Source of the DNA: an uncultured Bacteroidia bacterium
GTDB taxonomy: Bacteria > Bacteroidota > Bacteroidia > Bacteroidales > UBA932
Direction of reading: 5' to 3'
Assembly (NCBI GenBank): GCA_902778855.1
Contig: CACYZM010000008.1
Coordinates: 1 to 51,462 of the forward strand
Length of the DNA stretch: 51,462 nucleotides
A program made the translations under genes and the position numbers. The notes beneath the pieces were generated by a model. That model saw only the letters and a list, made by a program, of their open reading frames with translations, had not been told where the DNA came from and did not search any database. Below, piece after piece: positions 675 to 47,646 of the stretch; position 1 is the first letter of the stretch; the number at the start of each line of letters is the position of its first letter.

Positions 675-2222
675 TTATTCGATGGGCTCGCCGTCGGGCT
701 TGCACCACGTGGCCTGCAGGAGCGAGTAGTCGGTATTGCCCTCGATCTTGATCTTGCAGGAATATTTACGGCACCACTTGCGGCGGATGCTGTTGAAACC
801 TTTGGTCAGGTAGGCCTCGAAGATGGGGCTGACCTTGAGCACGAACGAATTCATGCTCCGTTCCTTGACGTAATAGGCGAGCTGGCGCTCGACGGTCTCG
901 TCAAAGAGGATGGTCGGTCCGACCTTGCCCGTACCGTGGCAGGTGGGGCAGACTTCGGCCGTGTTGATCTCCGTGGCGGGACGGACCCGCTGACGCGTGA
1001 TCTGCATCAGGCCGAATTTGGTCAGGGGAAGGACCGTATGCTTCGCACGGTCGCCGGCCATCAGTTCCTGCATATACTTGAAGAGTTGCTGGCGGTGGTT
1101 GCTGTCGTCCATATCGATGAAGTCGATGATGACGATGCCGCCCATGTCGCGCAGGCGCAGTTGGCGCGCGATCTCTTCGGCTGCATTTTTATTGACCTCG
1201 AAAGCGTTGTTTTCCTGGTCTTTCTGTTTGGCGCGGATACCGCTGTTGACATCGATCACGTGGAGGGCTTCCGTGTGTTCGATGATGAGATAGGCGCCCG
1301 ATTTGATGGAAACGATCTTTCCGAAGGAGCCCTTGATCTGGCGGCTCACCTCGAAATGGTCGAGAATCGGTTCGTTGCCTTTGTAGAGTTTGACGATCTT
1401 CTCCTGTTCGGGAGAGATCATCGTCACATAGTCATCGACCTCCTTGTAGACGGACTCGTCGTTGACGTAGATGTTCGTGAACGAGTCGTTGAGCAGGTCG
1501 CGGAGGATGGTGGTGGTCCGGCTGTTTTCCGTGAAAAGCAGCTGGACGCCCTTGTTCTTGGCAATGCAGGGCCAGGAGTCTTCCCATTTCTTGATCAGGC
1601 TCTTGAGCTCCGCATCGAGCACGGCGGCGCGTTTTCCTTCAGCAGCCGTGCGGATGATGACCCCGTAGTTCGGGGGCAGGATGCTGTAAACCAGCCGCTC
1701 CAGTCGTTTTTTCTCCTCGCGGGAGGCAATTTTCTGGGAGATGCTGACCTTGTCGGCGAACGGCAGCAGGACCAGGTTGCGGCCCGCTATCGAAATCTCC
1801 GCCGTCAGGCGCGATCCCTTGGTCGAGATGGGTTCCTTGACAATCTGGACGGCAATCGGCTGCCCCGGTGAGAGGAAGCGTTCGATTTTGCCTTCTTTTT
1901 CCAGAATGTCATCGATCCGGGTATTCCGGTACAGTTGCGTAAAGTCGCTGTTGGCATTGATGCTTCTGACGAAGTGGTCGAATGCCTTGAAGTTCAACCC
2001 CAGATCGAGGTAGTGTACGAAAGCGTCCTTCTCATCGCCGATGTCCACGAAGGCGGCGTTGAGCGACGGCAAGATCTTTTTGACTCGTCCAAGATAGACA
2101 TCTCCCACACTGAAGCCGCGTCCTTCCGTCTTCTCCCGGTTTAGCTCGATCAAGCGTTTGTTCTCGAGCAGGGCGATCGAAATTTCGGACTGGCCTACAT
2201 CAATGATCAGATCTTTGTCCAT
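675..2222 (-). CDS. rng: Ribonuclease G (RNase E/G family)
   Basis: A 515-residue endoribonuclease that processes rRNA precursors and takes part in mRNA decay. It has an S1-like RNA-binding part (about 38-125), the catalytic core with the two metal-binding aspartates in HVIDVNSG (D324) and IIDFIDMDD (D367), and the zinc-link CPTCHG (C425, C428) that joins subunits in RNase E/G. The large C-terminal scaffold of RNase E is absent, so this is the G type. It lies downstream of HU and a 29-residue basic protein on the same strand. A perfect 13-bp hairpin (2241-2270) sits 19 bases before its start codon. No TAnnTTTG box is visible between hairpin and start, so expression may depend on read-through. 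Confidence 0.95.
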   Translation of the reverse strand: MDKDLIIDVGQSEISIALLENKRLIELNREKTEGRGFSVGDVYLGRVKKILPSLNAAFVDIGDEKDAFVHYLDLGLNFKAFDHFVRSINANSDFTQLYRNTRIDDILEKEGKIERFLSPGQPIAVQIVKEPISTKGSRLTAEISIAGRNLVLLPFADKVSISQKIASREEKKRLERLVYSILPPNYGVIIRTAAEGKRAAVLDAELKSLIKKWEDSWPCIAKNKGVQLLFTENSRTTTILRDLLNDSFTNIYVNDESVYKEVDDYVTMISPEQEKIVKLYKGNEPILDHFEVSRQIKGSFGKIVSIKSGAYLIIEHTEALHVIDVNSGIRAKQKDQENNAFEVNKNAAEEIARQLRLRDMGGIVIIDFIDMDDSNHRQQLFKYMQELMAGDRAKHTVLPLTKFGLMQITRQRVRPATEINTAEVCPTCHGTGKVGPTILFDETVERQLAYYVKERSMNSFVLKVSPIFEAYLTKGFNSIRRKWCRKYSCKIKIEGNTDYSLLQATWCKPDGEPIE

Positions 2223-2224
2223 AC

Positions 2225-2270
2225 TTGTAAAAACGAAAATAATCTAAAGCAGAATGCTCTGCTTTAGATT
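2225..2270 (-). terminator. Hairpin terminator or attenuator ahead of rng
   Basis: On the minus strand a perfect 13-bp stem (arms 2270-2258 and 2253-2241, loop of 4) is followed by a T-rich stretch (ATTTTCGTTTTT). It looks like an intrinsic terminator for the HU/mS38-like transcript. It also ends only 19 bases before the rng start codon, so it may control rng. Confidence 0.75.
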
Positions 2271-2300
2271 AATCGGTGGATAAGAGTACCTTAGACAACC

Positions 2301-2390
2301 TTATTTCTTCTTATGTCTGTTCTTGCGCAGGCGTTTCTTACGCTTGTGCGTGGCCATCTTGTGCCTCTTATGCTTCTTTCCGTTAGGCAT
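2301..2390 (-). CDS. 29-residue mS38/COX24-like ribosome-associated protein
   Basis: An ATG at 2390-2388 opens a 29-residue frame ending TAA at 2303-2301. The protein starts MPNGKKHKRHKMATHKRKKR and ends RHKKK, so about two thirds of it is Lys, Arg or His. I recognise the pattern as the tiny AURKAIP1/COX24-domain (mS38-like) protein annotated in many Bacteroidota, which is thought to sit on the small ribosomal subunit. It is too short for most gene callers. It lies 21 bases downstream of HU on the same strand and ahead of the hairpin at 2241-2270, so it is probably co-transcribed with HU. The identification is from memory of the family. Confidence 0.85.
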   Translation of the reverse strand: MPNGKKHKRHKMATHKRKKRLRKNRHKKK

Positions 2391-2411
2391 AATATATATA
2401 ATTTAAAGGGT

Positions 2412-2693
2412 TTACGCTTCTTTGCTCACCTGGGCGATGAAGGTCTTGGCAGGCTTGAAGGCGGGAACATTGTGGGCGGGGATCACGATGGTCGTGTTCT
2501 TGGAGATGTTCCGGGCCGTTTTCTTCGCGCGGGTCTTCACCGTGAAGCTGCCGAAGCCACGGAGATAGACGTTTTCACCGTTGGCCAGCGAGTTTTTCAC
2601 GCTTTCCATGAAGCCTTCCACAACGCCCTGCACCTTAATTCTTTCAACGCCAGTGCTTTTGGCGATTTCGTTTACAATTTCAGCTTTAGTCAT
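2412..2693 (-). CDS. HU-family DNA-binding protein
   Basis: A 93-residue nucleoid protein. The start at MTKAEIV (ATG 2693-2691) is the standard HU start; nine residues further upstream in frame are AT-rich leader. HU hallmarks are the N-terminal dimerisation helices, the RGFGSF turn, and the basic DNA-binding arm ending in a proline-containing tip (IVIPAHNVPAFKPA). It bends and compacts DNA as a dimer. A strong promoter lies about 55 bases upstream, and the mS38-like gene follows at 2390. No anomaly is seen. Confidence 0.95.
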   Translation of the reverse strand: MTKAEIVNEIAKSTGVERIKVQGVVEGFMESVKNSLANGENVYLRGFGSFTVKTRAKKTARNISKNTTIVIPAHNVPAFKPAKTFIAQVSKEA

Positions 2694-2748
2694 AATAATA
2701 ATGTATATTTTAAGTATCAATCAGTTGAGTCCCTTTTTCAAGGGGTTG

Positions 2749-2779
2749 CAAAAATAGGTCTATTTTTTTAATTATCAAA
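2749..2779 (-). promoter_or_regulatory. HU promoter
   Basis: On the minus strand TTTG (2779-2776) is followed by exactly 19 bases and then TATTTTTG (2756-2749), a full match to the Bacteroidota consensus. It lies 55 bases before the HU start codon in an AT-rich patch. The divergent lon gene starts at 2881. I found no equally good box on the plus strand for lon. Confidence 0.85.
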
Positions 2780-2880
2780 AACAAGTGACTATTTTTTTGC
2801 AATTTTGTTTGGCATAACTATTGACCATTTCTACCGCCGGCCCATTTCGGCCGCACTGACTGACATTTTGACACGAAATT

Positions 2881-5301
2881 ATGGACAACAACGATATTTT
2901 GCAGAAGATTTTTGGCGGTTCCGGAAGTGAAGTCAACATCATTCCGGTCATGAACATGGACAACCCGGGCGGCGAGCTCCGCGAAGTGGACCTTCCCCCC
3001 ACCCTGCCCATCCTCCCGCTCAGGAACGCGATTCTATTTCCCAATACGGTCATCCCCGTTACGGTGGGACGGCCCAAATCCATCCAGCTGATCAACGATG
3101 TCTTCCGCAGCGGAAGGCTCCTCGGTGCCGTCACCCAGCGTGACGCCAAGGTGGAAGACCCCACGCCCGACGACATCTTCCCCATCGGTACGCTCGGACG
3201 CATCGTCAAGACCATCGAGATGCCCGACGACACCATCACGGCCATCATCCAGGGCGTCAGGCGCTTCGACATCCGGCGGATCGACATCACCGCCCCCTAT
3301 ATGATGGCGGAAGTAGCCTATCGGCGCGAGATCATTCCCGCCCCGGGCGATGATGACATGGACGCCCTGACCGGTTCGATCAAGGACGCCGCCATCCAGA
3401 TTGTCAAGCTCTCCCCGCACCTCCCCCAGGAAGCGGGCTACGCCATCAAGAACATCGAAGGCTACGACTTCATCGTCAACTTCATCGCCTCGAGCGCCGA
3501 GATCGATCCTCCGACCGACAAGGTGGCCCTCCTGGAGATCGACAGCCTGAAGGAACGCGCCCTCAAGCTGCTCGAACTGCTGGGCAAACACATCGACCTG
3601 CTCAAGATCAAGGACGACATCCAGAAGAAGGTCAAGACCGAGATCGACCAGCAGCAGCGCGAGTATTATCTGAACAACCAGCTCAAGACCATCCAGGAAG
3701 AGCTGGGCATCAACTCGGAAGAGGAAGACCTCACGCAGTTCCGCGCGCGGGCGAAAGACAAGAAATGGTCTGCCAAGGTGGCGGAGATCTTTGAAAAGGA
3801 ACTCCGCAAGCTGGAGCACACCAACCCCAATTCCGCCGACTACAACGTGCAATACGCCTACGTGGACTTCCTGCTGGAACTCCCCTGGGACGAAGTCTCC
3901 GCCGACAACCTCGACATGAAGAACGCGCAGCGGGTCCTCGACGAGGACCACTTCGGCCTCGAGAAGGTCAAGGAGCGCATCATCGAATACCTGGCCGTGC
4001 TCAAGCTCAAGGGCGACATGAAATCGCCCATCCTCTGCCTCTACGGTCCTCCGGGCGTGGGCAAGACCTCGCTCGGCAAATCGATCGCCCGGGCACTGGG
4101 GCGCAAGTACGGACGGATCTCCCTCGGCGGCCTGCACGACGAGTCGGAAATCCGCGGCCATCGCAAGACCTACATCGGCGCCATGCCGGGCCGTATCATC
4201 CAGACCATCAAGCGTGCCGGCACCTCCAACCCCGTCATCGTCCTCGACGAAGTCGACAAGGTGACGGAAGACGTCCACGGCGACCCGGCCTCCGCCCTGC
4301 TGGAAGCACTGGACCCCGAGCAGAATACCACGTTCCACGACAACTACCTCGACATCGACTACGACCTGTCCAAGGTCCTGTTCATCACCACGGCCAACGA
4401 CATCAGCGGCATCCACCCGGCCCTGAAGGACCGTATGGAAATGATCAATGTGTCGGGCTACCTGGCCGAGGAGAAAGTCTCCATCGCCCAGGGCTACCTC
4501 ATCCCGAAGCAGCGCCAGGCGCACGGCCTGGAAGAGAAGGACTTTCAGCTGACGGTCCCGGCCATCGAGACCATCATCGACCAGTACACCCGCGAATCGG
4601 GCGTCCGCGGCCTCGACAAGCAGATCGCCAAGGCGGCCCGCATCACGGCCAAGAAAATCGCGCTCGAAGAGCCCCTGCCTGCGGAGATCGGTCCCGACGA
4701 GGTGAAGGAATACCTCGGCCTGCCGACCAATTTCCACGACATCCAGGAAGGAAACGAGGCGCCCGGCGTCGTCACCGGCCTGGCCTGGACCCAGATGGGC
4801 GGTGAGATCCTCTTCGTGGAGTGCAGCCCGAGCGAAGGCAAGGGCGTGCTCTCGACCACCGGCAACCTGGGCGACGTGATGAAGGAGTCGGTGACCATCG
4901 CCTACCAGTACATCAAGGCCCATCCGGAACTGGCCGGGACGACCGCGGAAGAACTGGCCAAGAAAGACCTCCACGTGCACGTGCCGGAAGGCGCCATCCC
5001 CAAGGACGGCCCTTCGGCCGGCATCACGATGGTCAGTGCCATGGCCTCCGCCCTCCGTGGCAAAGCCATCCGCAGCCACGTGGCCATGACCGGTGAGATC
5101 ACCCTCCGGGGCAAGGTGCTGCCCGTGGGCGGCATCAAGGAGAAAATCCTGGCCGCCAAGCGCGCCGGCGTCAAGACCATCGTCCTGTCGAAAGAGAACG
5201 AGAAAGACGTCAAGGACATCAAGCCCCTGTACGTCGAAGGGCTCGAATTCCACTATGTCGACCGCATCGACGAGGTGCTCGACTTCGTATTCGCAGAATA
5301 G
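2881..5301 (+). CDS. lon: ATP-dependent protease Lon
   Basis: An 806-residue cytoplasmic AAA+ serine protease that degrades misfolded and regulatory proteins. An N-terminal substrate-binding domain (about 40-240) is followed by a coiled region, then the ATPase with Walker [10 protein letters not shown] (389-397) and Walker [10 protein letters not shown]. The C-terminal protease has the catalytic Ser-Lys dyad: S712 in KDGPSAG and K755 in GGIKEKIL. The length is normal for the family. It is transcribed away from HU and followed two bases later by ung, so the two are probably co-transcribed. No clear promoter box or CIRCE-type operator is visible upstream. Confidence 0.98.
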
Positions 5302-5303
5302 CC

Positions 5304-5972
5304 ATGGACGTCAAGATCGAAGAAAGCTGGAAGCGCGTCCTCGCGCCCGAGTTTGAAAAGCCCTATTTCCAGGAGCTGGCACGCCAGCTGCACGAAGAAA
5401 AGCGCGCCGGGAGGACCATCTACCCGCCCGGCCCGCTGATTTTCAACGCCTTCAATCTCACACCCTTCGACCAGGTAAAGGTCGTCATCATCGGGCAGGA
5501 TCCCTACCACGGGCCGGGGCAGGCCGAAGGCCTGTCCTTCTCGGTTCCGCACGGCATGCCGCTGCCCCCGTCCCTGGTCAACATCTACAAGGAGATTGAA
5601 ACCGATCTGGGCGTGACGCTCCACAAGGACGGCTCGCTGCGCGGCTGGGCGGAGCAGGGCGTGTTCCTGCTCAACGCCGTGCTGACGGTGCGCGCCGGGC
5701 AGCCCACGTCGCACAGCCGGATCGGCTGGGCCGAGTTCACCGACGCAGTGATCCGCACGCTTTCCGACCAGCGCGAGGGGCTGGTGTTCCTGCTCTGGGG
5801 CAATTTCGCCCGCTCCAAGCGGGAACTGATCGACACCGGCCGCCACACCGTGCTGGAAGCGGCCCACCCGTCCCCGCTTGCGCGGGGGGCGTTTTTCGGG
5901 TGCCGCCACTTCTCCCAGACCAACCGGATTCTTCAGTCTCAAGGACTTGCGCCGATCGACTGGACGAAATGA
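5304..5972 (+). CDS. ung: Uracil-DNA glycosylase (family 1)
   Basis: A 222-residue DNA repair enzyme that removes uracil from DNA. The water-activating loop GQDPYHG (64-70, D66 catalytic) and the minor-groove loop HPSPLARGAF (H188) are both intact, and the length is normal. The ATG lies two bases after the lon stop, which implies co-transcription. A strong terminator follows directly. Confidence 0.98.
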   Translation: MDVKIEESWKRVLAPEFEKPYFQELARQLHEEKRAGRTIYPPGPLIFNAFNLTPFDQVKVVIIGQDPYHGPGQAEGLSFSVPHGMPLPPSLVNIYKEIETDLGVTLHKDGSLRGWAEQGVFLLNAVLTVRAGQPTSHSRIGWAEFTDAVIRTLSDQREGLVFLLWGNFARSKRELIDTGRHTVLEAAHPSPLARGAFFGCRHFSQTNRILQSQGLAPIDWTK

Positions 5973-6003
5973 AAAGTGCCTTTCGGCACTTTTTTTGTTT
6001 TTT
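5972..6003 (+). terminator. Intrinsic terminator after ung
   Basis: AAAAGTGCC, loop TTTC and GGCACTTTT form a stem followed by a run of seven T's and more T-rich sequence. It starts at the ung stop codon and ends the lon-ung transcript. Confidence 0.9.
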
Positions 6004-6026
6004 TCCCGCCTGTATGTTTTTTTTTA

Positions 6027-6034
6027 TAAATTTG
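6027..6034 (+). promoter_or_regulatory. Promoter box for the 6.1-15.2 kb operon
   Basis: TAAATTTG matches the Bacteroidota TAnnTTTG box, 60 bases before the start of the OmpA-family gene. No TTTG is seen at the right distance upstream, where the DNA is the T-rich tail of the terminator. The upstream element is therefore unsupported. Confidence 0.6.
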
Positions 6035-6094
6035 TATGATTGTTCGAGTGAAAAACACGATAATCATACATAAACCATTAATCAATCTACTACC

Positions 6095-6784
6095 ATGAAA
6101 AAAGTTTTAGTAGCCCTCATCTGCACGGCCCTCGTTCTTTCCGGCTGTGGCAACATGTCCAATCTGGCCAAAGGTACCGCCATCGGCGGCGGTTCCGGCG
6201 CAGCCCTCGGTGCCGGTGTCGGCGCCCTGATCGGTAAGGATGGCAAGAGCACGGCCATCGGCGCAGCCATCGGTACGGCTGTCGGCGCCGGCGTCGGTGC
6301 CCTGATCGGCAACAAGATGGACAAGAAGGCCGCCGAACTGGCCGCCGCCATGGAAGACGCCAACATCGAAGTGGTGACCGACGCCAACGACCTGAAGGCC
6401 GTCAAGGTGACCCTCGAAAGCGGTATCCTCTTCAACACCAGCAGCTCCACGCTGAACGAAACCTCGAAGATCGCCCTCAAGAAGTTCGCTGCCAACATGG
6501 CCGACATGCCCGACACGGACCTGACCATCCTCGGCCACACCGACAACACCGGTTCCCCCGAGTACAATGACAAGCTTTCCGTGCAGCGCGCCGCTTCCGT
6601 GGCTTCTTACCTGCAGAACTGCGGCATGTCGATCGACCGCATGACGATCGAAGGCCGTTCGTTCCACGAGCCCGTGGCTGACAACAGCACGAAGGAAGGC
6701 CGTCTCCAGAACCGCCGCGTCGAAATCTACATCACCGCCAACGAGAAGATGATCGACCAGGCCCAGAAGGGTACGCTCAACTAA
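6095..6784 (+). CDS. OmpA-family lipoprotein with glycine-zipper region
   Basis: 229 residues. A lipoprotein signal ends at LSGC (C18). Residues about 28-75 form two glycine-zipper segments (GAALGAGVGALIG, GTAVGAGVGALIG), which can insert in or pack against membrane. Residues about 95-220 are an OmpA C-terminal domain with the peptidoglycan-binding pattern LGHTDNTGS and the closing NRRVEIYI. The expected role is anchoring the outer membrane to peptidoglycan, like YiaD/Pal-type proteins. It is the first gene of a tight plus-strand series and is followed after 29 bases by the TMEM43-like gene. Confidence 0.93.
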   Translation: MKKVLVALICTALVLSGCGNMSNLAKGTAIGGGSGAALGAGVGALIGKDGKSTAIGAAIGTAVGAGVGALIGNKMDKKAAELAAAMEDANIEVVTDANDLKAVKVTLESGILFNTSSSTLNETSKIALKKFAANMADMPDTDLTILGHTDNTGSPEYNDKLSVQRAASVASYLQNCGMSIDRMTIEGRSFHEPVADNSTKEGRLQNRRVEIYITANEKMIDQAQKGTLN

Positions 6785-6813
6785 ATCACTGACCGCCCAC
6801 TGACTTAAACGTT

Positions 6814-9789
6814 ATGGCTTTCCAAGAAACTACACGGCAATCCTACGGAAGCAAAGTCAAAGGCTCCTTCCAGGGGATTCTGTGGGGTATCATCCTGATC
6901 CTTGCCGGCACGGTCGTCCTCTGGTGGAACGAGGGCCGTGCCGTCAAGGCCAGTGACGCCCTGAAAGATTTCCAGAAGAATTACGTCGAACTTCCCGACG
7001 TAACGACCGTCGATCCCGCCTTCGAAGGCAAAGCGGTCCACGCTACCGGTGTGGCCACTACCGACGAAATCCTCCGCGACGAAGCCTTCGGCATCGCCGT
7101 CAACGCCATCCGCCTCGCCCGCACCGTAGAATACTACCAGTGGACGGAGAACAGCGAATCCGAAAGCAAGGACAAGCTCGGCGGCAGCACGGAAACGACG
7201 ACGACCTACACCTACGAACCCGCCTGGTGCAGCGAACCGGAGAACTCCAACGAATTCAAGGATCCCGACTACAGGGGCAAGAATTTCGTGTGGCGTTCCA
7301 TCGACGATGCGGAAACCAGCGCGAAGAACGTGACCCTTGGCGCCTACCGGCTCACCGACGGCATTATCGCCCGCATCTCGGGTGAAGAGCCCGCCTATCC
7401 GGCGCTCGATACCGCGATGAAGGCCAAGCTGCTGGCCCAGGTCACCGACTCGACCGTCACGGTCACCGTCACGAACGACCAGGTCTACATCGGCGCCGAT
7501 CCTTCCACGCCGCACATCGGCGACGTGCGGATCACCTTCACCCAGGTGACTTCGCCCAAGACCATCTCCCTGCTGGAGAAAGTGGTCAACGGCACGTTCG
7601 AGAACTACATCGCCAAGAACGGCAAGTCCTTCTCCCGCGTGGAGATGGGCACCGTCAGCGCCGAAAACATGTTCGAACACCAGAAATCGGCCAACAAGAT
7701 GGTACTCTGGCTCTTCCGGGTCCTGGGCATCATCCTGGTCGTCGCCGGCTTCAAGTCCCTCCTGGGCTTCCTCAGCACGATCTTCGCCGTGGTTCCGTTC
7801 ATCCAGCGGATCATCGGCGCAGGCGTCGGCCTCGTGTCCACCGTCCTTGGCCTCGTCTGGAGCCTCATCGTGATTGCGATCGCCTGGGTGGCGCACAGGC
7901 TGGTCCTGGCCATCGCACTGCTGGCCGTCGCCGTCGTCCTGATCGTCTGGCTCGTGGGCCGGTCGCGTAAAAAAAAAACAGCTGACGTAGTCGCCGTCCT
8001 CGTCCTTGTGCTGGCTCTCGGCCTGAGCGCCGGCTGCAAGAACACCGACAACGTAACCCCGCGTGGAGAGAATCCTGAAGCCCAGGATCTCTCCACGGTT
8101 TTTAAAGGCCCCGCCAAATCGATCTTCGTAACTACCTTATACGGGGAAGGCGAACCGTACTACCAGGAGTACCAGTTCGACGAGAAAGGAAAACTGGTCT
8201 CCAAGAAAGAATACTCCCCCTTCGAAGAGGAAGGAGACGGCCTGAACGAGGCGCTGTCGGAAAAGGATGCCCAGGGGCGGTACACGAAAGAAGTCTGGGG
8301 CACCGACGATGAAATCTACAACATCCAATTGACGGAATACACGGCCGACGGCCACATCGCCCGGAACCAATGGCTGGATGGCGACGGAACGGTCCGCACT
8401 ACGACCACCTATCGCTACGACGGAGCCGGCAACCAGACGATGTCGCACACCGAGAACAACTACAACAATTCCACCTACACGAATGTCTACGAATTCGACG
8501 ACCAGAACCGCCTGGTGAAATCCACTTCCTCCTATGACGGACAGGTCAACGACATCCAGACTTACCGCTATGACGTGGACGGTTGGGACCGGGTCTATGA
8601 AACGGAGTGGGTCAACCTCGGCAAAAAATCCGTATCGTATGAAAAGATCGGCAAAGACAGTCTGCTCTTAGCTTCCCGGCGTTATGAAACCGACGAAAAC
8701 GGGACGCGCCTGACCTTCTGCGACACGACTTTCACCGATGCCAGCGGCTGCCGCCACCAACGCAATTATTACAATTACGACAAGGAGTATTCCTACGAAG
8801 GTGTTTACAACAAACAGGGTTATCTGACCCATTGCGAACTGTTTACCGGCAAAAGCACCCGTCCGGCCAAAACGCTCGACCTGGAAATGGCGCCCGACGG
8901 CGAGAGCCTGAAGAGCATCACGTTCCGCACCCAGCAATTCGGCCAGGTGGAGGAGGAAAAATCCAATCACCTCATGGAATTCGACTCGTTCGGCAACTGG
9001 ACCGACCGGACGCTCGGCATGCAATACACCCCGGACCTGTTCTGGAGTGACAAACTGGAAGATTTCGAAGGTTTGCTAACCACCCAGCACCGCACTTTCA
9101 CCTACTACGGCGACGACCAGGGGCAGAACTACGGCTTCGAAGGCAAGAACGGTGACAGCGAGCTGCGTATGCTCTGGACCAATGACAACGGCGTCTTCCG
9201 CGGCGAAGCCTTCCTCGACGGCGACCCGGTGCGTATCGTGGGCCACAAAGACAAGAATTCGACCAGCTGGCACATCGTAGCCTTGGAGAAAGACGGTACG
9301 ATTCCCTGGCATATCTATCTGGATACCGCCGAAAACCCCTGCACGGCCACGGTTGTCAAGGGCATGGACGAGATCAAGATTCCGGTGAACGCCACCCGCA
9401 AAGACCTGAAAACCTACAGTTTCAAGGCCAAGGCCGATGACATCGTAGGCATCTACGAGTACAGCGACAAGGGCGGCGACACGGGCGACGGCTCGCTCAA
9501 CGTCTCCCGCTGCGGCGACAACTGGGAGGACTACCAGTTTGAGATCACCAACAGCGGCCCCGCTCCGTCGTACAACATGGCGACCGACAAGTTCACAAAC
9601 TCCCCCAGCGAGACGCTTGAGTTCTACAACTATCTCTGGGACGACAATTCGGATTCGGGCTTCTCCTACAGGATCCGTTTCTTCGACGACTTTGCCGTCA
9701 TCGAACGCATGAGCGGTTCCCCGATGGGCTTCTTCGGCATGGGTATGACGGTCGAAGGCATTTATGCTAAACTTCCCTCCGTCGGTTAA
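6814..9789 (+). CDS. TMEM43-like membrane protein fused in frame to a YD-repeat lipoprotein-like protein
   Basis: 991 residues in one frame, with two parts. Residues 1-385 look like the TMEM43 (PF07787) family: a membrane segment at about 21-38 (ILWGIILILAGTVVLWW), a large soluble domain, then several hydrophobic segments at 297-383. Residues 386-991 look like a secreted lipoprotein: basic RKKK, hydrophobic stretch, lipobox LSAGC (C408), then YD-type repeats of the RHS kind (YQFDEKGKL, YRYDGAGNQ, YEFDDQNRL) and an unassigned C-terminal part. The joint is an A10 run (7969-7978). With A9 the frame stops at 7988-7990, and with A11 at 7983-7985, giving a normal TMEM43-like protein of about 390 residues. 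An in-frame GTG at 7954 would start a lipoprotein with signal MGRSRKKK plus lipobox. It may therefore be two genes. Confidence 0.75.
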   Translation: MAFQETTRQSYGSKVKGSFQGILWGIILILAGTVVLWWNEGRAVKASDALKDFQKNYVELPDVTTVDPAFEGKAVHATGVATTDEILRDEAFGIAVNAIRLARTVEYYQWTENSESESKDKLGGSTETTTTYTYEPAWCSEPENSNEFKDPDYRGKNFVWRSIDDAETSAKNVTLGAYRLTDGIIARISGEEPAYPALDTAMKAKLLAQVTDSTVTVTVTNDQVYIGADPSTPHIGDVRITFTQVTSPKTISLLEKVVNGTFENYIAKNGKSFSRVEMGTVSAENMFEHQKSANKMVLWLFRVLGIILVVAGFKSLLGFLSTIFAVVPFIQRIIGAGVGLVSTVLGLVWSLIVIAIAWVAHRLVLAIALLAVAVVLIVWLVGRSRKKKTADVVAVLVLVLALGLSAGCKNTDNVTPRGENPEAQDLSTVFKGPAKSIFVTTLYGEGEPYYQEYQFDEKGKLVSKKEYSPFEEEGDGLNEALSEKDAQGRYTKEVWGTDDEIYNIQLTEYTADGHIARNQWLDGDGTVRTTTTYRYDGAGNQTMSHTENNYNNSTYTNVYEFDDQNRLVKSTSSYDGQVNDIQTYRYDVDGWDRVYETEWVNLGKKSVSYEKIGKDSLLLASRRYETDENGTRLTFCDTTFTDASGCRHQRNYYNYDKEYSYEGVYNKQGYLTHCELFTGKSTRPAKTLDLEMAPDGESLKSITFRTQQFGQVEEEKSNHLMEFDSFGNWTDRTLGMQYTPDLFWSDKLEDFEGLLTTQHRTFTYYGDDQGQNYGFEGKNGDSELRMLWTNDNGVFRGEAFLDGDPVRIVGHKDKNSTSWHIVALEKDGTIPWHIYLDTAENPCTATVVKGMDEIKIPVNATRKDLKTYSFKAKADDIVGIYEYSDKGGDTGDGSLNVSRCGDNWEDYQFEITNSGPAPSYNMATDKFTNSPSETLEFYNYLWDDNSDSGFSYRIRFFDDFAVIERMSGSPMGFFGMGMTVEGIYAKLPSVG

Positions 9790-9793
9790 CGCT

Positions 9794-10276
9794 ATGAGAA
9801 CCGCCCTGTTCCCGGGATCGTTCGATCCCTTCACCCTCGGTCATATGGACATCCTCCGCTCCGCGCTTAAGATGTTCGACCGCGTCATTGTCGCCGTGGG
9901 TTACAACAGCGCCAAAAGCGGATTCTTCCATCCCGACCTCCGCGTCCAGATCATCAAGGACGCGGTGGCGGGGATGGAGAACGTGGAAGTGTGTTCCTAC
10001 CGCGGGCTGACCGTTGAATTCTGCAAACAGATGGGCGTGAGCTGCATCATCCGCGGCCTTCGCACCACCACCGACTTCGAAATGGAGAGCGTCATCGCCC
10101 AGGCCAACCGCAAGATGGCCCCCGACATCCTGAGCATCTTCATTCCGGCCGGGCACGAATACTCGTTCATCTCCTCCACGGTCGTGCGCGACGTGCTCAA
10201 CAACGGTGGCAACGCCCGTTGTTTCCTGCCCCAGAACGTGGATATCGACAAATATCTCCAACTGCGGGAAGTCTGA
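9794..10276 (+). CDS. coaD: Pantetheine-phosphate adenylyltransferase
   Basis: 160 residues. It transfers AMP to 4'-phosphopantetheine in coenzyme A synthesis. The start at MRTALFPGSFDP (ATG 9794) is chosen because this is the conserved N-terminus, which places the phosphate-binding GSFDP and the nucleotidyltransferase GH motif (TLGHMD). The C-terminal ISSTVVRD signature is also present. It follows the previous stop by four bases and overlaps the next start codon (TGATG). Confidence 0.97.
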   Translation: MRTALFPGSFDPFTLGHMDILRSALKMFDRVIVAVGYNSAKSGFFHPDLRVQIIKDAVAGMENVEVCSYRGLTVEFCKQMGVSCIIRGLRTTTDFEMESVIAQANRKMAPDILSIFIPAGHEYSFISSTVVRDVLNNGGNARCFLPQNVDIDKYLQLREV

Positions 10277-11769
10277 TGCGACGGGGTCTGATCATCGGTA
10301 TGCTGCTGCTGGGATGTCTGGCCTTCCAGGCCAAGGCCCAGCCGTTCACGCATCCGTCCGTCACGGCCTATCTGCAGACCCTGATCGAAAAGCCGGTCGG
10401 CGCCATCTGTGCGGATGTCGACCGGCTCATCGATTCGGTGGGCAGGCAAAAGCCGGAACTCCAGTCGAAAGTAGCCGGCATCTGCTTCGACTTTTTCACC
10501 GATTCTCCCGTGATGGGGCACGACGCCGTCGCCGTCCACATTGCCGACGACTGGTTCCTCAACGGCAAGCTCAAACTGGAAAACGAGCAGCTCTACCCCA
10601 TCCTGTACACCTATGCCGAATTCAACCGGAGCTCCCTGGTGGGCAAGAGCGCCCCGGCCCTGACGATGGACGATCCGCAGGGCGTTCCCGTCAACATCCG
10701 GGCCGTCTCCGCTGACCACAAGATCCTGTTCTTCTATGATACCGAGTGCGCTACCTGCCGCAAGGAAGCGCCCCTGCTGGCCGACCTGCTCCGCAACTAC
10801 GAGGGCGAAAGGCTCAGTTTCTTCGCCATCTACACCCAAAGCGACCGCGAAGGCTGGGAGCGCTATGCCGGTGAAGTCTTTGCCGGGATCGACAATCCCA
10901 ACGTGAGCGTTTACCACCTCTGGGATCCCGAGGCGGCCACGAACTTCCACAAGCTGTACGGCGTCCTCTCTACGCCGCAACTATTCCTGCTCGACGGCCA
11001 GAACACCATTCTCGGCCGCGGCCTTGACAGCGAAGCGCTCGCCTTCATGCTGGGCGGTGAAAACGCCCGCGCCATTCAGTACAAGAACCTGTTCGACCAG
11101 ATTTTCGGCGCCTTCTCACCACTGACCATCAATGATGTGGAAGGCATCGCCGACGCCTTCGCCGACCGCTCGCGCCACGACGCCGGCATCTACGTGGAGA
11201 TCTTCACGCACCTGTTCAATTACCTTCGCACCAGCGAAGAGTCCCCCAAGCAGCAGGGCGCCCTCTACGTGGCGGAAAAATACATCGCGGCGGAGCCCGC
11301 CTTCTGGTCGGAAGAGTTCCTGGAAACCACCATCCACGCCCTGACCCGCGCCCGGATGAATCCCGTCGGCGCCCACGCGAAAGATCTCACGCTCCGCAAC
11401 CGGCGGGGCCGGCTCGAGTATCTGCTGGAAGGGCGCAGACCCTATACGCTGGTGTTCTTCCACCTGCTCGACTGCAAGCAGTGCCAGGAAGAACTCTCCG
11501 CGCTCCGCCCTCTCGCAACCGACCTGCGGGAGGCGGGCATCAAAGTCAAACTGGTCTACGTCGGCCACGAGCAGGAGGCCTGGCGTAAATTTGCCAGAAA
11601 AGTACCCTGCGGCTGGGTCTGTCTCAGCGACTTTGAGGGAACCAGCGACATGCGGACCCTCTACGACCTGGAATACGTACCGCATCTCTACCTGCTCGAC
11701 AACCACGGCACCATCCTGGCCAAAGACATCCAGGTGGCCGAACTTAAGCAAATGCTTCCCCTATTATGA
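10276..11769 (+). CDS. Exported protein with two thioredoxin-like CxxC domains (TlpA/DUF5106 type)
   Basis: 497 residues with a Sec signal peptide (MRRGLIIGMLLLGCLAFQAKAQ). The N-terminal part resembles the DUF5106 region found ahead of TlpA-like thioredoxins in Bacteroidota. A first thioredoxin-like domain has CATC (C158, C161). A second near the C-terminus has CKQC (C400, C403), with the VYVGHEQEAW and PHLYLLDNHG strands of a TlpA fold. The expected role is thiol-disulfide exchange or reduction in the periplasm; the partner is unknown. The start overlaps the coaD stop and the end overlaps the next start (ATGA), so translation is probably coupled. Two redox motifs in one chain is less common than one. 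Confidence 0.85.
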   Translation: MRRGLIIGMLLLGCLAFQAKAQPFTHPSVTAYLQTLIEKPVGAICADVDRLIDSVGRQKPELQSKVAGICFDFFTDSPVMGHDAVAVHIADDWFLNGKLKLENEQLYPILYTYAEFNRSSLVGKSAPALTMDDPQGVPVNIRAVSADHKILFFYDTECATCRKEAPLLADLLRNYEGERLSFFAIYTQSDREGWERYAGEVFAGIDNPNVSVYHLWDPEAATNFHKLYGVLSTPQLFLLDGQNTILGRGLDSEALAFMLGGENARAIQYKNLFDQIFGAFSPLTINDVEGIADAFADRSRHDAGIYVEIFTHLFNYLRTSEESPKQQGALYVAEKYIAAEPAFWSEEFLETTIHALTRARMNPVGAHAKDLTLRNRRGRLEYLLEGRRPYTLVFFHLLDCKQCQEELSALRPLATDLREAGIKVKLVYVGHEQEAWRKFARKVPCGWVCLSDFEGTSDMRTLYDLEYVPHLYLLDNHGTILAKDIQVAELKQMLPLL

Positions 11770-47618: not shown

Positions 47619-47646
47619 ACCGTAAAGTTACAAAAAAAACTGATAC

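Follow-up and report, generated by a model that had tools for sequence, protein, structure and literature searches.

Slippage that shortens a protein has its cellular model in Thermus dnaX. As set out in two papers, the T. thermophilus gene has a run of nine A's, gives the full-length product in frame 0 and a short product about half of the time, and has stops in both other frames (PMC1088944, PMC5009743). Passages of the same papers describe Shigella mxiE and spa13, where homopolymer slippage decides which of two products forms (PMC1088944, PMC5009743); slippage gives the longer product there, whereas it would give the shorter one in the gene reported here. Our gene resembles dnaX, as those passages present it, in having a run of at least nine A's within a single ORF, a full-length product in frame 0, and stops just after the run in both other frames. 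It differs in that dnaX encodes polymerase subunits, whereas this Bacteroidales gene joins a membrane protein to a lipoprotein, carries a conserved hairpin downstream, and is predicted from its sequence to undergo slippage. A second parallel is Bradyrhizobium fbcH, which encodes cytochrome b/c1 as a polyprotein in which a polytopic membrane protein and an exported protein form one chain with an internal signal. In fbcH the chain is cut by signal peptidase I, whereas a lipobox is present here, and fbcH is not known to have a slippery run.

The window, meaning the whole 51,462-nucleotide stretch analysed, has a G+C content of 60%. The fused gene lies between lon, ung and an OmpA-like lipoprotein gene upstream and coaD downstream, and has the following features.

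6814..9789, + strand: fused frame of 991 aa, TMEM43-like protein plus YD/RHS-like lipoprotein
6814..7977, + strand: TMEM43-like part, residues 1-388, with the C-terminal end RKKK (Pfam PF07787, E 2.1e-65)
7969..7978, + strand: putative slippery run A10 with three AAA codons at 7969-7977; AAA AAA AAA in 13/13 fused genes, including that of the window
7983..7985, + strand: TGA reached by one extra A or a -1 shift, giving a 390-aa short product; stop at the same codon position in 13/13
7988..7990, + strand: TAG reached by one A fewer or a +1 shift, giving a 391-aa short product; stop within the first to eighth codon in 13/13
7978..8037, + strand: predicted internal lipoprotein signal after RKKK, with lipobox LSAGC and the Cys408 codon at 8035-8037; G or S before Cys in 13/13
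8062..8097, + strand: covarying RNA hairpin of 15 pairs, with one G and then T5 (8099-8103) behind it
8035..9786, + strand: predicted mature lipoprotein module, all-beta, 584 aa (AF2 mean pLDDT 84)

The original prediction had described the frame, the A10 run, an in-frame GTG at 7954 and the two stops reached with one A more or one A fewer, and all were located as described. Its proposal that a TMEM43-like protein ends and a lipoprotein signal starts at the run was borne out as well, by the Pfam TMEM43 match and by the RKKK, hydrophobic stretch and Cys found in every fused gene. The TMEM43 match covers residues 107-362 at 221 bits, far above the curated cut-off of 23.3. The C-terminal part has a weak RHS_repeat match (PF05593) of 24.2 bits, just above the cut-off of 22, and no other Pfam domain at E up to 0.001. 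At E up to 0.01, RHS_repeat was matched in 11 of 13 rows (12 fused proteins and a free-standing copy). No toxin domain was among the Pfam matches behind the repeat core, yet the greater share of the C-terminal part has no match to any family. Foldseek returned Rhs, teneurin and Tc-shell matches for this all-beta part, and these are only local because the TM-scores are 0.09-0.25 by query length. The AF2 model of the full-length fusion is poor (pLDDT 61) and supports no conclusion. Across the whole 2.4 Mb genome there are 19 separate A or T runs of at least nine, three of which are flanked on each side by 150 or more open codons in some frame; the two besides the run described here (L077 and L086) lie in candidate genes. 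The window also holds an A8 run at 47632-47639.

Whole-genome searches of 40 genomes of the genus, mostly drafts and one per species, revealed matches in 27, of which 13 carry the fused gene and 14 an unfused TMEM43; the remaining 13 genomes had no match. Twelve of the fused frames are complete and one is cut by a contig end. The fused proteins share 52-99% pairwise identity, and as two of them (L006 and L031) are 99% identical, the 13 represent about 12 distinct genes. The 13 genomes share ancestry, and counts over them are not independent. The original prediction had allowed that a one-base assembly error might hide two overlapping genes, and A10 is indeed error-prone in reads, but the same frame is kept in all 13 fused genomes, down to 52% identity. 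Sequencing or assembly error is ruled out by this agreement, and we regard its probability as negligible. As to the check on homologues proposed there, separate lipoprotein genes do exist beside unfused TMEM43 genes in relatives, and 13 of the 40 genomes have the fusion. Relatives with the same fused frame and no A-run, which would have counted against slippage, were absent, as the run occurs in 13/13 fused genes.

Among the other strong matches of an order-wide PF07787 search of 393 genomes, no fused TMEM43 was found. The domain was matched in ten of these at E up to 0.001, eight of them above the cut-off including the window's own; six further strong matches lie in open frames of 379-442 aa, and one weak match just above the cut-off (G682, 24.6 bits) lies in a frame of 732 aa. 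In a family search of 398 genomes, the open frames of TMEM43 matches outside the genus reach at most 493 aa. The junction arrangement is more than chance, given that the fused frame recurs and that 13/13 retain the run together with the stop on either side of the frame choice, TGA or TAA after one A more and a nearby stop after one A fewer.

The junction reads CGN AAA AAA AAA in every fused gene, and the run is A9 in three, A10 in nine and A11 in one. All 39 run codons are AAA, although these genes have a GC3 of 0.68-0.81 and prefer AAG overall (408 AAG and 285 AAA among pooled Lys codons, so that AAA makes up 41%). Defining conserved Lys columns as those with Lys in at least 12 of the 13 genes gives 23 columns, three of them inside the run; of the 20 outside, 17 are mixed, three are all AAG and none is all AAA. 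On the TMEM43 DNA tree there are no codon changes in the run, against 0-5 in each other conserved Lys column. Thus a run of at least nine A's in the ORF is kept by synonymous choice in 13/13, as in dnaX. Thirteen of the 14 unfused relatives have a longest A-run of 3-7 within the final 120 nt of TMEM43; in the fourteenth (G017, a broken gene) it is 5 within the stretch checked. One unfused gene, L032, encodes the same RKKK peptide as AGG AAA AAG AAA.

The stops are kept as well. With one A more, or a -1 shift, translation would end exactly two codons later in 13/13, at a product length of 390 residues; with one A fewer, or a +1 shift, the product would have 388, 391 or 395 residues, again in 13/13. 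Among 851 gap-free columns, the -1 property is present in all 13 genes at three and the +1 property at one, and both together occur at a single column, the junction. Codon 390 ends in T in 13/13, yielding TGA or TAA in the -1 frame, while the amino acids at this site vary (TAD, ISD, LNN, LSD, MNN, AAN). GCT, TCT and AAT at codon 390 are minor codons, and a naive product of codon frequencies, which ignores relatedness, is 4e-13. Stops in both non-zero frames just past the run, the second dnaX-type feature, are therefore found in 13/13.

A plain gene fusion, with the AAA codons retained by chance or mutational bias, would be compatible with some of these observations: relatedness reduces the weight of the 39/39 count, AAA accounts for 41% of Lys codons, and three other columns are uniform too. 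Those three are all AAG, however, no other conserved Lys column is all AAA and they change up to five times on the tree, no other of the 851 columns has the double stop, and the run is interrupted in unfused relatives. We give this explanation very little credence.

We consider it quite probable that the A-run is a programmed slippage site of one gene that makes two products. Where RNA polymerase copies the run faithfully, ribosomes would read through to give the 991-residue precursor; where it adds or drops A's, translation would stop at once and yield the TMEM43-like protein alone, with 390 or 391 residues. As the run and the nearby stops in both other frames have been kept by evolution, this one gene probably supplies the cell with the short as well as the long protein in these gut Bacteroidales. 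Among the options raised in the original prediction, a slippage switch with a fused product is thus the best supported, and neither an error nor a separate lipoprotein started at the GTG fared as well. What we observe directly is that frame, run, lipobox and the two stops are conserved; slippage itself, polymerase as its agent and cleavage of the precursor are what we infer from it. Baranov et al. (PMC1088944) caution that comparison alone can hardly prove slippage whose product is truncated. Literature searches on transcriptional slippage, including that in Bacteroidetes, and on frameshifts at runs gave nothing like this gene by title or abstract, which is no proof of absence, and a word search of the main text of the GeneTack survey (PMC3711429) did not return TMEM43.

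The same early stop could be reached if ribosomes, rather than polymerase, shifted or slid on AAA AAA AAA. One study reports that E. coli ribosomes slide on homopolymeric AAA and stop out of frame (PMC4363877), and sliding of the kind described there would leave a similar comparative signature (PMC4363877). The -1 stop is also kept more exactly than the +1 stop. A -1 ribosomal shift requires only about seven A's, however, and the first of the three AAA codons is kept in 13/13 as well. Frameshift stimulators act at 5-9 nt, whereas the consensus fold has no helix starting within that distance and the hairpin begins at +61 to +103. Stops in both directions also fit insertions and deletions in the mRNA. 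Ribosomal shifting is therefore the less likely route, and we judge it fairly unlikely; slippage by RNA polymerase is most likely, because of the three AAA codons, the two-sided stops and the lack of a frameshift stimulator at the usual distance.

Slippage might instead take place in DNA, with replication altering the run length and switching the lipoprotein on or off in cell lineages. Runs of A9-A11 are long enough for replication slippage, and cells out of frame would make TMEM43 alone. Against such phase variation, all 13 genomes (one per species) are in frame, the lengths 9, 10 and 11 arise by flanking substitutions (CGT to CGA, or a next codon starting with A) and not by indels, and nearby stops would not be needed. 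We find it very unlikely.

Lipoprotein signals consist of a basic n-region, a hydrophobic h-region and a lipobox Cys. Compared by eye with this general pattern, all 13 fused genes have RKKK, followed by a hydrophobic stretch and then by a Cys with G or S just before it; in the precursor these would together act as an internal lipoprotein signal. By the positive-inside rule, basic residues lie on the cytoplasmic side; RKKK would be cytoplasmic, so the lipobox would face the periplasm and the fused chain could be lipidated and cut there. We suggest that the precursor is probably cut at this conserved internal lipobox; lipidation and cleavage at Cys408 would release TMEM43 and a beta-rich lipoprotein from one chain. 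The objection that a natural fusion is hard to reconcile with lipobox cleavage is softened in principle by the signal order kept in 13/13, but literature searches gave no report of an internal lipobox being cleaved when it follows several membrane helices.

Alternatively, the lipoprotein could be made separately by internal initiation, with the A-run serving as an A-rich ribosome-binding region. A-rich leaders favour translation initiation in Bacteroidota, a GTG lies five codons upstream of the run in 8/13, an ATG immediately follows the run in L009, and a GTG or ATG occurs 13 or 15 codons past the first AAA in 13/13. However, the remaining five genes have ATA, ATC or GTA in place of the upstream GTG, so the start at 7954 put forward in the original prediction was rejected as a general route. 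The starts at +13/+15 sit within the hydrophobic stretch, 5-9 residues ahead of Cys, which we judge too late for a signal peptide. The free-standing copy in genome G011 has an ATG and no run, and internal initiation leaves the two stops and the keeping of the frame in 13/13 unexplained. This makes it highly unlikely overall. We think that the lipoprotein is produced mainly via the fusion, because GTG occurs in only eight genes and the other starts lie inside the hydrophobic stretch near Cys. Our guess at its role is a scaffold in the envelope, made in a dose that is set relative to its partner TMEM43.

The lipoprotein module also exists outside the fusion. G011 has both the fusion and, in tandem beside it, a free-standing copy (L025, complement of 1498-3282) with its own ATG and lipobox MRNTFFLSALLILGLLLSSGC, which shows that the module can occur as a normal lipoprotein. 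Six related loci with unfused TMEM43 (L018-L021, L032, L033) were inspected downstream of that gene, and in five a separate gene with an ATG of its own encodes a lipoprotein of 406-409 aa; for L019 no separate ORF was found there, yet the genus search matched the lipoprotein. The genus search matched these separate lipoproteins in six genomes, at 27-30% identity, and in G017 at 23%. In G017 (L024, L026), TMEM43 is apparently broken into two frames.

On trees, the fused genes and those with coaD directly after TMEM43 (L013-L015) separate from other TMEM43 genes; two family rows in wrong frames (L037, L040) were disregarded in the first tree, and the outgroup of the second consisted of two genes only. 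L013-L015 have no A-run at the TMEM43 end. As they fall inside the fused group on a weakly supported tree read by eye, requiring at least three changes, there was probably more than one loss of the lipoprotein, each taking the run with it. The genus search found no other lipoprotein copy in these genomes, which are 60-86% complete. The two halves of the fusion differ in history: between L001 and L002, residue identity is 79% for TMEM43 and 94% for the lipoprotein. At the nucleotide level, identity rises or drops sharply close to the run and signal (L001 compared with L002, L005 and L008; window 8035-9786). The lipoprotein module seems to have been swapped between species, with the boundary at the junction.

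The covarying hairpin inside the coding sequence after the lipobox is new here. It begins 61-103 nt past the lysine codons in 13/13 fused genes. We folded the junction alignment of 12 of them (L006 was omitted as a near duplicate of L031), and the consensus contains a stem in which both strands carry changes. In the zone 60-148 nt past the third AAA, the best window of 46 nt ranks 0-4 among 850-983 gene windows in 13/13 and ranks 0 in nine. When the region was recoded synonymously 300 times with pooled codon use, the recodings reaching the observed energy numbered 0, 0, 1, 0, 8, 0, 1, 7, 11, 14, 1, 12 and 15 (L001-L005, L031 and L006-L012 in order). With each gene's own codon use and the zone set from Cys, the count was 0-28 of 300, and at most 13 in 10/13 genes. 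The inner 12 nt of the arms pair at a mean of -19.3 kcal/mol with their own partner and -10.6 kcal/mol when swapped. Foreign arms paired better than the gene's own in none of the comparisons for 8/13 genes and in one to six for 5/13, as expected within sub-clades. The hairpin is well supported, and it is mostly beyond synonymous expectation.

Outside the fused genes the hairpin varies. In the free-standing copy it reaches only -15.2 kcal/mol (19/300 recodings), and in five separate lipoprotein genes 11, 53, 85, 168 and 249 of 300 recodings reached the energy. A pattern survey of lipoprotein genes gave 29 ORF rows, 25 after removal of four nested starts: 12 were the OmpA-like gene, six separate downstream lipoproteins, and 11 (nine genes) others. 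The post-Cys region was in the top 0.5% of windows in none of the nine other genes and in three of the six separate lipoproteins, with weak energies of -13.9 to -18.4. The OmpA-like neighbour was rejected as another selected hairpin, as 70-187 of 200 recodings reach the energy in 15 genomes. One separate small lipoprotein-like ORF of 181 aa after TMEM43 (L023) has a hairpin of -32.4 kcal/mol after Cys (4/300 recodings). This ORF is unfused and lacks an A-run, and because it has an excess hairpin without the fusion, the tie between hairpin and slippage is weakened.

An intrinsic terminator at the hairpin was also considered and rejected. L001-L004 have four or five T's at the end of the stem or directly behind it and the other nine genes do not, so a simple terminator is not general, and a terminator scan of 5900-10400 did not call the hairpin, perhaps owing to its bulge. 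Rfam gave one match below the cut-off (E 0.74) at 8178-8233 and none at the hairpin. The consensus fold of the 12 fused genes also shows a five-pair stem before the run (window about 7948-7961); it has no two-sided changes and may reflect only the conserved peptide.

That the hairpin works with the run is a guess, and aid to membrane insertion or protection of the message are equally open. We regard it as unlikely that run and hairpin form one switch, in which slippage is coupled to attenuation inside the coding sequence. Ribosomes stopping early in a slipped frame would leave the RNA past the run bare, the hairpin would fold, and it would block, terminate or trim the lipoprotein part of the message, while translating ribosomes would protect faithful mRNAs.

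In combination, synonymous conservation, double stops and matched unfused relatives make a strong comparative case in gut Bacteroidales for slippage of the kind modelled by dnaX. The locus also suggests a bacterial precursor in which an internal lipobox links a lipoprotein to a protein of the inner membrane. If the run and hairpin do act as one switch, slippage-coupled attenuation would let the cell set the ratio of membrane protein to lipoprotein.
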